A DNA stretch of 64,000 nucleotides from Desulfovibrio ferrophilus (GTDB taxonomy: Bacteria > Desulfobacterota > Desulfovibrionia > Desulfovibrionales > Desulfovibrionaceae). This document shows positions 27,916-31,139 of the stretch, one piece after another. The notes beneath the pieces are model-generated. The model saw only the letters and a list, made by a program, of their open reading frames with translations. It made no database searches and had not been told where the DNA came from. Within the stretch, counting starts at the first letter, position 1. The number at the start of each line of letters is the position of its first letter. The position numbers and the translations under genes are program-made. The DNA lies in NCBI RefSeq assembly GCF_003966735.1, contig NZ_AP017378.1:2934905-2998904 (forward strand), written 5' to 3'.

Positions 27916-27956
27916 CCGGGGAAGGGGCCTTTTCCTCAAAAAGGCCCCTTCCCCGG
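27916..27956. promoter_or_regulatory. Perfect 18-bp-arm hairpin before the helicase gene
   Basis: The left arm CCGGGGAAGGGGCCTTTT (27916-27933) and its exact complement (27939-27956) flank a five-base loop CCTCA. It lies 45 bp upstream of the helicase ATG. It could end upstream transcription, form an attenuator, or be a mobile palindromic element. Confidence 0.65.
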
Positions 27957-28001: not shown

Positions 28002-31000
28002 ATGGCCGACATCCGCGAATACATCGAGGCGCTCAAGGCGTCGGAACGCATGGGGCATCTGGTGGCGCACCACGAGATTATGCCTGCGCGCGAGGCCGAG
28101 TACGGCCAGTGCCGCCGCGCTTGGCCCGTGACCGTGGAGCGCGTGCTGCACGAGCGCGGCATCGAGCAGTTGTATTCGCATCAGGCCCGGTCCATGGACG
28201 TGCTCAGAAGCGGGCGTAGCGTGGTGGCGGCCACACCCACGGCCAGTGGCAAGACTCTGATCTACAATCTGCCCGTCATCGAGCAGGTCCTGGCAAACCC
28301 GGACAGCCGCGCCCTGTATCTGTTTCCCTTGAAGGCCCTGGCCCAGGACCAGTTGAAGGGCTTCGAGGAGCTGGTGGCAGCCTGGCCCAAGGACACTCGG
28401 CCCACGGCGGCCATCTACGACGGCGATACAACGGCATGGTTCCGCAAGAAGATCCGAGAGACCCCACCCAATGTGCTCTTGACCAACCCGGAGATGCTGC
28501 ACCTGGCGCTCATGCCCTATCATGAGAACTGGGCGGCGTTCTTTGCGGGACTGACGCACATCGTGGTGGACGAGGTGCACACCTATCGCGGGGTGCTTGG
28601 CTCGCACATGGCCCAGGTCTTTCGCAGGCTGAAACGTGTCTGTCGCCGTTACGGCGCGGACCCGGCCTTTGCGTTTTTATCGGCCACAGTGGGCAACCCC
28701 CGCGAGCTGGCGGCCCAATTGACTGGGGTCGAGGTCGAAGGCGTCACCGAGAGTGGTGCTCCTCAGGGGGCACGCCATTTTTTGTTCCTGAATCCGGCCC
28801 AGACCATGGCTGACAGTCCGTCGCAGGTGGCGATTCTGATGCTCAAGGCCGCGTTGTCGCGTGGGATGCGAACCATTGTTTACACGGGCTCGCGCAAGAT
28901 GACGGAGCTCATCGCCATGTGGGCCTCGGAGCGGGCGGGCAAGTACAAGGGCAAGATCAGCGCCTATCGCGCCGGATTCCTGCCCGAGGAACGCCGCGAC
29001 ATCGAGGAACGCATGGCCAGCGGCGATCTGCTGGCAGTGATCTCCACCAGCGCGCTGGAATTGGGCATCGACATCGGCAGCCTGGATTTGTGTATTCTGG
29101 TGGGCTACCCCGGCACCATCATGCAGACCCTGCAACGTGGCGGACGCGTGGGTCGGGCGCAGCAGGAATCCGCTGTGGCGCTCATCGCGGGCGAAGATCA
29201 GCTGGACCAGTATTTCATGCGCAATCCGCAGGACTTTTTTGCCCGCCCCCCCGAGCAGGCGGTGCTCAATCCGTACAACCCCAAGATCGTTGAGAAACAC
29301 CTTGTCTGCGCAGCGGCTGAACTGGCTATGAGGCCAGATGAGCCGTGGCTTGCCGAGGACGGGATAGTGCCCATCGTGCGCGACCTGGAGTTGCGGGGCA
29401 AGTTGCTGTTCTCCGCGGATGGCGACACCATTCACTCCCACCGCAAGCGTCCCCATTACGAGGTGGATCTGCGCGGTTCGGGCGGACAGTTCCAGATTAC
29501 GACCCGCATCGGGCAGGACAACGGGGGTGCCGACCCGGCCAAGGAAGTCAGCGTGGGCCAGATCGACGAGCAGCGGGCCTACAAGGAGACGCATCCCGGG
29601 GCCGTGTACCTGCACCGGGGCAAGACCTATGTGGTGGATGATCTGGACATTGGCGGGCGCACGGTGCGTGTGGTCCCGGCCAAGGTGGACTACTACACGC
29701 GGGTGCGCACGGAAAAGACCACGGAGATTCTGTCCATTGACGGTGTGCGCTCGGCCTGGGGCATGCGTGTGTTCAAGGGCCGGCTCAAGGTCACCGAGCA
29801 CGTCACGGGCTATGACAAGCGCCGTACACGCGGTGGCAGGCTGCTGACGCTGGTGCCGCTGGACCTGCCACCCCTGACCTTCGAGACCGAGGGCCTGTGG
29901 ATGGAGATTCCGCGTGGGGTGCAGCGCCGCGCCGAGGACGAATACATGCATTTCATGGGTGGCATCCATGCCCTGGAGCACGCGGCCATAGGCATCCTGC
30001 CGCTGCTTGTCATGACCGATCGCAACGATCTGGGCGGTATTTCGACCCCGTTTCACCCCCAGGTGGGGGCGGCGGCGGTCTTTGTCTACGATGGCACACC
30101 CGGTGGCGTTGGCCTGTCATTCCAGGCCTTTGACCAGGCCGAGGAACTGTTGGAGCGGACCCTGGGCGTCATCGCCGGCTGCCCCTGCGAGGTGGGCTGC
30201 CCGTCGTGCGTGCATTCGCCCAAATGTGGCTCGGGCAATCGGCCCATCGACAAGGCCGCGTCGCGTTTTCTGCTGGAAGCCATCCAGAGTGAGGCTGGAC
30301 CGGACATTGATGCCCAAGCCCTGATGGAGGCCTTTGTGCCCCCTGAAGTCGTGAATGCTGAGCCTGCATCTGCTGCGAAACAGGGCAAGAATACAGTGGG
30401 TGAGGCGAGTGAAGCATCCCGGAAAGCCATGTCAGATAAGGATCTAAATCAAAGTAATACGAAAAAACATACGATACGTATTGAAGTCCAGGAGCAGACC
30501 GGTCGGAAATCTAATCCAGGCACTTCGCATGGGCAGAGGGCACAGTCACCTTCGGACGTGAAACAGTTGGATTCGGAACAGGAGGCCGTCATGAATGCCA
30601 CTGAAAATGGTCGCTACGGGGTCTTTGACCTGGAGACGCAGCGTTCCGCCGCCGAGGTGGGCGGCTGGCACAAGGCCTATAAGATGGGGGTGTCCTGCGC
30701 CTGCCTGTTCGATTCGGCCACGGGTGAGACTCGAGCCTATCTGGAAGAAGAGGTGCCTGAACTCATTGAGGATTTGCAGGCCCTGCCGTTGGTGATCGGC
30801 TTCAATATCAAGCGTTTCGATTACACGGTGCTCAAAGGGTATTCACGTTTCGACTTCAAGACCCTGCCCACACTGGACCTGTTGCAGCGCGTGCACGAGC
30901 GACTGGGCTACCGTCTGTCCCTGGATCATCTGGCGCAGACGACCCTTGGGGCCAAGAAATCAGCCGATGGTTTGCAGGCTCTGGAATGGTGGAAACAAGG

Positions 31001-31139
31001 CCGCATCGACGACATCGTGAAATACTGCAAGCAGGATGTGGCCGTGACCCGCGATCTGTATCTGTATGGGCGGGAGAATGGGTATCTGCTGTTTACCAAT
31101 AAGGCGAAGAACGTGGTCAGGCTACCTGTCAGTTGGTAA
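28002..31139 (+). CDS. DEAD/DEAH helicase (MrfA/YprA type) fused to RNase H-like exonuclease (MrfB/YprB type)
   Basis: The 1045-residue product has two parts. Residues 1-780 are a superfamily 2 helicase: Walker A TPTASGKT (78-85), DEVH (190-193), SATVGNP, motif VI QRGGRVGRA (378-386). The DUF1998-type zinc cluster GCPCEVGCPSC plus SPKCG (C727-C742) follows. Residues 783-868 are a low-complexity, AT-richer linker. Residues 870-1040 are a DEDD exonuclease: FDLET (D876, E878), KRFDY (D940), KQDVAVTRDLY (D1012). In Bacillus subtilis the two halves are separate neighbours, MrfA and MrfB, in mitomycin-damage repair. ATG 28002 follows AAAGG. An internal AGGAGG-ATG at 30591 lies exactly between linker and nuclease. 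Confidence 0.9.
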   Translation: MADIREYIEALKASERMGHLVAHHEIMPAREAEYGQCRRAWPVTVERVLHERGIEQLYSHQARSMDVLRSGRSVVAATPTASGKTLIYNLPVIEQVLANPDSRALYLFPLKALAQDQLKGFEELVAAWPKDTRPTAAIYDGDTTAWFRKKIRETPPNVLLTNPEMLHLALMPYHENWAAFFAGLTHIVVDEVHTYRGVLGSHMAQVFRRLKRVCRRYGADPAFAFLSATVGNPRELAAQLTGVEVEGVTESGAPQGARHFLFLNPAQTMADSPSQVAILMLKAALSRGMRTIVYTGSRKMTELIAMWASERAGKYKGKISAYRAGFLPEERRDIEERMASGDLLAVISTSALELGIDIGSLDLCILVGYPGTIMQTLQRGGRVGRAQQESAVALIAGEDQLDQYFMRNPQDFFARPPEQAVLNPYNPKIVEKHLVCAAAELAMRPDEPWLAEDGIVPIVRDLELRGKLLFSADGDTIHSHRKRPHYEVDLRGSGGQFQITTRIGQDNGGADPAKEVSVGQIDEQRAYKETHPGAVYLHRGKTYVVDDLDIGGRTVRVVPAKVDYYTRVRTEKTTEILSIDGVRSAWGMRVFKGRLKVTEHVTGYDKRRTRGGRLLTLVPLDLPPLTFETEGLWMEIPRGVQRRAEDEYMHFMGGIHALEHAAIGILPLLVMTDRNDLGGISTPFHPQVGAAAVFVYDGTPGGVGLSFQAFDQAEELLERTLGVIAGCPCEVGCPSCVHSPKCGSGNRPIDKAASRFLLEAIQSEAGPDIDAQALMEAFVPPEVVNAEPASAAKQGKNTVGEASEASRKAMSDKDLNQSNTKKHTIRIEVQEQTGRKSNPGTSHGQRAQSPSDVKQLDSEQEAVMNATENGRYGVFDLETQRSAAEVGGWHKAYKMGVSCACLFDSATGETRAYLEEEVPELIEDLQALPLVIGFNIKRFDYTVLKGYSRFDFKTLPTLDLLQRVHERLGYRLSLDHLAQTTLGAKKSADGLQALEWWKQGRIDDIVKYCKQDVAVTRDLYLYGRENGYLLFTNKAKNVVRLPVSW

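Follow-up and report, generated by a model that had tools for sequence, protein, structure and literature searches.

A 64,000-nucleotide stretch of Desulfovibrio ferrophilus DNA (NCBI RefSeq assembly GCF_003966735.1, contig NZ_AP017378.1, positions 2,934,905 to 2,998,904; hereafter the window) carries a gene that joins a MrfA/YprA-type helicase and a predicted DEDDy 3'-5' exonuclease in one chain. The fusion is real, conserved and common in Desulfovibrionales, and its architecture is already known in print. It probably represents a conserved chromosomal-repair enzyme. We favour, with moderate confidence, the reading that this is a housekeeping enzyme of DNA repair encoded on the chromosome: an MrfA/YprA-family helicase whose C-terminus bears the exonuclease on a flexible tether. 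That exonuclease most likely forms its own RNase_H_2 branch and fills the place of MrfB without being MrfB itself; the label "MrfB fused to MrfA", given in a preliminary description of the sequence, was partly right.

The gene occupies 28002..31139 on the forward strand of the window (C1:2962906-2966040 in the host genome), from an ATG at 28002 to a stop codon ending at 31139. The frame encodes 1045 amino acids with no internal stop. Reading of the frame and Pfam domains above their cut-offs confirmed the single intact frame with helicase, zinc and exonuclease parts that had been described. The MrfA-type assignment of the helicase half also stood. A phmmer search of the PDB matched fusion residues 6-739 to Bacillus subtilis YprA/MrfA (6znp) with an expect value (E) of 7.1e-148. 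A full-length AlphaFold2 model was built from 33 aligned fusions (mean predicted local distance difference test score, pLDDT, 83.9; predicted template modelling score, pTM, 0.83). In VIA this model aligned with 6znp over 727 residues (Z 38.9; root-mean-square deviation, rmsd, 6.2; 35% identity), and the best non-MrfA structure entry reached Z 26.4. On sequence and predicted structure, the first half is a member of the MrfA/YprA family. RecA1/2, winged helix, OB/connector and the four-cysteine MZB domain are shared with 6znp, whereas the fusion has an extra tail of approximately 280 residues comprising linker and exonuclease. B. subtilis MrfA and MrfB are described in PMC12458937 and PMC11194089 as a 3'-5' helicase and a 3'-5' exonuclease, respectively, which are thought to cooperate on mitomycin monoadducts or intrastrand links.

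The exonuclease domain comprises residues 872-1045 (30615..31136, +). Searched alone, it matched RNase_H_2 (PF13482) at E 1e-9, in line with the RNase H-like/DEDD exonuclease previously placed in residues 870-1040, and matched DNA_pol_A_exo1 and DNA_pol_B_exo2 more weakly. These three models matched 29/30, 19/30 and 25/30 order homologues, respectively, the fusion included. With the whole protein as query, RNase_H_2 (3.2e-8) and DNA_pol_A_exo1 (3.2e-5) were above their curated cut-offs. Conserved positions were read from an alignment of 33 full-length fusion proteins, picked from the loci in hand. All five catalytic exonuclease residues were invariant: D876 and E878 in Exo I (DLET, residues 876-879, 30627..30638, within FDLET 875-879), D940 in Exo II (F939-D940, both invariant, 30816..30821, within KRFDY 937-941) and Y1008 and D1012 in Exo III (YCKQD, 31023..31037, ending in KQD 1010-1012). 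The exonuclease motifs of the preliminary description were thus all located, as were its helicase and zinc motifs, given below.

A model of the exonuclease domain (mean pLDDT 96.0, pTM 0.90) was compared with known structures. The top Foldseek rows were T7 DNA polymerase (best E 9.8e-7). In VIA two entries tied at the top: 5mdn, a B-family polymerase (Z 15.2, rmsd 3.8, 161 aligned), and 6p7e, the T7 polymerase (Z 14.8, rmsd 2.7, 150 aligned). MrfB (8un9) was not among the best 50 Foldseek or VIA rows, which does not exclude an MrfB-like fold. MrfB itself is reported in PMC11194089 to be most like archaeal B-family polymerase exonucleases, so the fused domain and MrfB are not separated by fold alone. 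According to PMC3985635, some PF13482 members fall in RNase H-like cluster F.14, apart from COG3359, together with DEAD/DEAH-type helicases and T7 polymerases. The T7-like fold match would agree with this if the fused family were F.14, although F.14 may hold genuine RecQ proteins. The possibility that the exonuclease truly belongs to PF10108 was rejected, as that model gave just weak partial matches in 4/12 genomes, each time at the fusion gene.

Sequence comparisons placed the fused domain in the same broad RNase_H_2/DEDD group as MrfB, which upholds that part of the MrfB assignment, and set it at a distance from MrfB within the group. Neither the sequence by itself nor the order profile matched MrfB (8un9) at E ≤1, and a broader profile did not match it at E ≤10. 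B. subtilis and Geobacillus MrfB scored 44.2 and 37.6 bits, respectively, with a profile of stand-alone YprB proteins built without MrfB, versus 3.8 and 0.5 bits with the fused-domain profile. (A further stand-alone profile, A3, contains an MrfB row, so its match to 8un9 is no test.) In hhalign the single MrfB sequence matched the fused family with a probability of 2.3% and the stand-alone family with 98.0%. A maximum-likelihood (ML) tree was built from 43 rows, including 13/26 fused rows, 18/33 stand-alone rows and, on the MrfB side, two MrfB sequences and one from Acetoanaerobium. Row L166, which groups with another exonuclease and not with PolA, was used in the trees as outgroup only. Fused rows formed their own clade (support 100/100), apart from a 99/99 clade in which MrfB stood with 13 stand-alone rows and the Acetoanaerobium row; long branches were flagged. 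FastTree gave the grouping of stand-alone rows, MrfB and Acetoanaerobium a support of 0.939, but the approximately unbiased (AU) test applied to the ML tree did not set this grouping above one of fused rows with MrfB.

Residue-level differences from MrfB (COG3359) were also recorded. The Exo III position was Tyr in 80/80 named-genome fused-type loci, and the B. subtilis MrfB catalytic residue is given in PMC11194089 as His258. Geobacillus and Acetoanaerobium proteins have His at this place (by eye). Stand-alone YprB-type order loci also have Tyr (30/30 read, some near-identical), so the Tyr/His difference does not mark the family boundary. In the fusion protein the exonuclease domain is the last part of the chain (in 80 loci, 0-9 residues follow it) and there is no TPR domain; nor is its exonuclease a separate gene, as MrfB is.

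A closer MrfB relative is another gene of the same genome. This second RNase_H_2 gene (C1:1682988-1683437, -) lies far from the fusion and has a family score of 133.4 bits, versus 38.4 bits for the fusion. Its product, a stand-alone YprB-type protein (L062:1369-2256, -, near 1.683 Mb and outside the window), comprises 295 amino acids and matched 8un9 at 9e-8. The flanking genes are of MarR type on one side and, on the other, a divergently oriented gene for SRAP (SOS response associated peptidase), and no helicase gene was present in the locus. By hand count, a separate YprB-type gene was present in 68/199 order genomes at E 7.5e-29 or better, including three in longer frames with E from 1e-36 to 1e-28; an automatic tally of 94 genomes includes weak matches to the fused domain itself. 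As 65 of the 68 were also among the exonuclease-domain matches listed (hand count), the fusion and the stand-alone gene often coexist. An N-terminal FCHIPRIG segment was observed in the 295-residue protein, with a similar form in stand-alone order loci.

The fusion was recurrent across Desulfovibrionales. The full protein matched 184/199 order genomes, some of these being weak generic helicase matches (e.g. E 3.7e-7, G141), and the exonuclease domain matched 172/199, with one match in 168. For 150 order genomes the matches were listed by place; 146 lay in frames of at least 954 residues (hand count) and four in shorter frames (G048, 585; G055, 199; G020, 653; G092, 520). From the 22 order genomes beyond those 150, 13 were re-examined; G149, G033, G043 and G051 had shorter-frame or broken loci, besides stand-alone cases. 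The 30 best order loci were all fused, as expected from their selection. A scan of named genomes gave at least 542 relatives; the 80 with the best exonuclease match were retained, and absence outside this group is not implied. Names among these 80 were Desulfo- taxa, "Deltaproteobacteria" and, once, "Proteobacteria". A profile search found helicase sequence in frame with the exonuclease in 77/80 loci (68 with a full helicase, 6 cut by the contig end and 3 without part of the N-terminus in frame); two others were cut before the helicase, and one (L135) was a stand-alone exonuclease. The long frames in 146/150 order genomes together with the in-frame helicase in 77/80 loci argue that the fusion is not due to chance. 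Helicase and exonuclease distances co-varied (r 0.646, 0/2000 permutations as high), which shared species history alone could explain. The 15/199 order genomes without a match were all at or below 3.2 Mb (7 below 2 Mb, some incomplete), and loss may go with small genomes.

In the residues between the zinc motif and the exonuclease domain, the distance varied from 58 to 132 (measured in 52 of the best 80 loci), and the 72 linker residues 783-854 (30348..30563, +) had pLDDT below 50 in the full-length model. Because the linker is predicted to be disordered and its spacing varies, these results argue for a flexible tether and not a rigid unit. The earlier proposal of a "fixed one-to-one complex" therefore holds as to one-to-one, from the covalent linkage, whereas "fixed" is not supported.

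We infer the activity, substrate and repair role of the fusion, and, by analogy with B. subtilis MrfA, the polarity of its helicase. The MrfA-like motor would open the duplex where a lesion or some other structure lies, and the exonuclease, kept at high local concentration by its tether, would trim nucleotides from the exposed 3' end. A model of the MrfA-MrfB pair published in PMC11194089 places a free 3' end near the MrfB active site. The tether could give the same proximity without the N-terminal docking segment of MrfB. MrfB is stated in PMC11194089 to require Leu113, a wedge, and B-family polymerase exonucleases to need none, being fed single strand alone (Figure 7 legend). The counted position of this wedge in the fusion, four residues after the catalytic Glu, is Ser882, which is nearly invariant, although the loop alignment is unsure. 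The fused exonuclease may rely on the helicase for single-stranded ends. A more specific version of this scheme is tentative and, in our estimate, rather unlikely: a further helicase-exonuclease pathway, complete in itself and separate from MrfAB, in which an RNase_H_2 exonuclease of its own branch, with a proofreading-like fold and Ser at the duplex-melting Leu wedge of MrfB, would depend on the tethered MrfA-type motor for single-stranded 3' ends, while a true MrfB-family enzyme acts elsewhere in the cell.

Several results weigh against the reading of a housekeeping repair helicase with its own branch of tethered exonuclease. Among the profiles compared by hhalign, the fused family was nearest to the stand-alone YprB family, if distantly (96.8%, E 2e-10; against 6.4% for PolA-type, 0.2% for RNase D and 4.1% for a third exonuclease group). 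The AU test rejected neither fused rows with MrfB (p 0.334) nor stand-alone rows with MrfB and Acetoanaerobium (p 0.402). With YprB as the nearest profile and the fused+MrfB grouping left standing, it is possible, on sequence, that the fused exonuclease is a diverged MrfB. In a sample of the phylum, only 73/247 genomes matched the exonuclease, so it is not universal there; these 73 include 9 from the host's own family (the host genome among them) and at least three weak matches (E above 1e-6) to stand-alone YprB-type frames. The exonuclease also occurs without an in-frame helicase (L135; L228 in G103; L233 in G186; L238 in G298) and thus need not work with a helicase.

The alternative that survives best takes the exonuclease for MrfB itself, as an orthologue that diverged and lost its TPR, so that the B. 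subtilis mitomycin pathway is held in one chain. The shared Pfam family, the proximity to YprB and the AU test are in its favour, and the two families weakly detect each other: 26 fused rows scored 12.0-31.1 bits with the YprB profile and 33 stand-alone rows 6.3-32.4 bits with the fused profile, which speaks against a sharp split. However, the fusion does not match 8un9 while another gene of the genome does, MrfB is recognised by the stand-alone and not by the fused profile, the ML tree sets MrfB apart from the fused rows, and the TPR is absent. We regard this alternative as a serious but unlikely one. The MrfB label deserves softening, the fused exonuclease being probably a distant MrfB relative and likely a separate branch.

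A much less probable explanation is that helicase and exonuclease have no more in common than their chain and work separately, or that they serve RNA or replication-fork processing instead of lesion removal. The long disordered linker would permit independent action, and at least four loci have the exonuclease without an in-frame helicase. In 25 genomes picked as odd or low-scoring (30 matches, first 27 loci examined), 19 loci were fused, with the N-terminal part beyond the locus end, 2 were cut and 6 had no in-frame helicase (G103, G186, G298, G092 and two in G051). G103 and G186 carry the exonuclease in stand-alone form only. In G298 the stand-alone exonuclease (L238) stands besides a fused copy, and in G051 both loci are broken. 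Against independent action, linkage is retained in 77/80 best loci and, within the phylum sample, in the majority of matching frames, which are of 940-1210 residues. In L228 (G103) and L233 (G186) the exonuclease was observed as its own frame of 193-200 amino acids, with catalytic residues present by eye and no helicase in the locus. In L221 (G092) helicase and exonuclease lie in different frames on one contig, as a split gene or a frameshift.

Least probable, by a small step, is a role in defence against phages, as in systems built on YprA helicases (DISARM, Druantia, ARMADA): YprA helicases are described in PMC12458937 as central to several defence systems and the helicase core was matched by defence helicase models (58 families at E ≤0.01), but the best stretches fall in residues 42-436 (for 25 of the 58 families), the fusion is widespread in the order, usually with one copy per genome, no relative was found in viral contigs (two patterns scanned; 116 pattern matches, none a relative), the exonuclease domain was not matched on plasmids, and PADLOC on the seven neighbouring genes gave only one weak match (RlmL-type methyltransferase, mad2, 7.1e-6).

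A clause in a 2025 preprint (PMC12458937) already speaks of fusions between YprA helicases and MrfB/YprB homologs. The fusion has the same described architecture and presumably belongs there; the string "desulfo" is absent from the main text of that preprint. A literature search, judged by titles and abstract openings, found no study of this fusion itself, no title on a Desulfovibrio helicase and mitomycin, and none joining a DUF1998 helicase with Desulfo- taxa. Human WRN likewise holds a helicase and a DEDD 3'-5' exonuclease in one chain, with a helicase of a different family. The same combination is found in the exonuclease-DinG of Staphylococcus aureus (PMC12345164), which differs in its helicase family, its N-terminal exonuclease and its 5'-3' unwinding. 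The fusion is a naturally occurring single-chain form, for which the stand-alone exonucleases can serve as controls from nature, so that coupling becomes testable by severing or altering one linker. It also gives a caution that not every MrfA-joined exonuclease should be called "MrfB".

The remaining domains of the protein, all on the forward strand, were as follows. RecA1 (DEAD/DEAH helicase domain, residues 59-233, 28176..28700; PF00270, E 2.2e-27) contains Walker A TPTASGKT (residues 78-85, 28233..28256) and Walker B DEVH (residues 190-193, 28569..28580), in which K84, T85, D190, E191 and H193 were invariant in the 33 proteins. RecA2 (Helicase_C, residues 284-386, 28851..29159; PF00271, E 2.6e-13) ends with motif VI, QRGGRVGR (residues 378-385; QRGGRVGRA to 386), with R379, R382 and R385 invariant. 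These are followed by a winged-helix domain (residues 423-492, 29268..29477; PF22982, WHD_HRQ1, E 6.4e-7) and a beta-rich OB/connector region (approximately residues 495-635, 29484..29906), which was assigned by MrfA homology from strands in the model and the 6znp alignment, with approximate limits and with domain names as used in PMC12458937. The MZB/DUF1998 zinc-binding domain (residues 658-737, 29973..30212; PF09369, E 9.1e-22) includes GCPCEVGCPSC (residues 726-736), of which C727, C729, C733 and C736 were invariant. The best NCBIfam model was TIGR03817, with 695.6 bits, under its cut-off of 874.1.

The seven neighbours at 24.6-34.5 kb of the window were an RlmL-type methyltransferase, YCII, a DeoC/LacD aldolase, OsmC, one with no assignment, an M48 peptidase and Mut7-C; no operon or defence gene set was indicated among them. 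No conserved repair neighbours were seen in 42 loci with lengths of 9 kb or more, where the fusion gene was the sole recurrent forward family among the clusters listed (recurrence threshold 6 loci); the other 12 listed clusters were reverse-strand frames, two of which, located by hand, fall within the fusion gene itself. A perfect 18-bp inverted repeat with a 5-base loop was observed at 27916-27956, in the gap that separates upstream OsmC from the fusion. The 81-base stretch here has a single place in the genome, apart from its own reverse arm. The repeat could be a terminator or attenuator.

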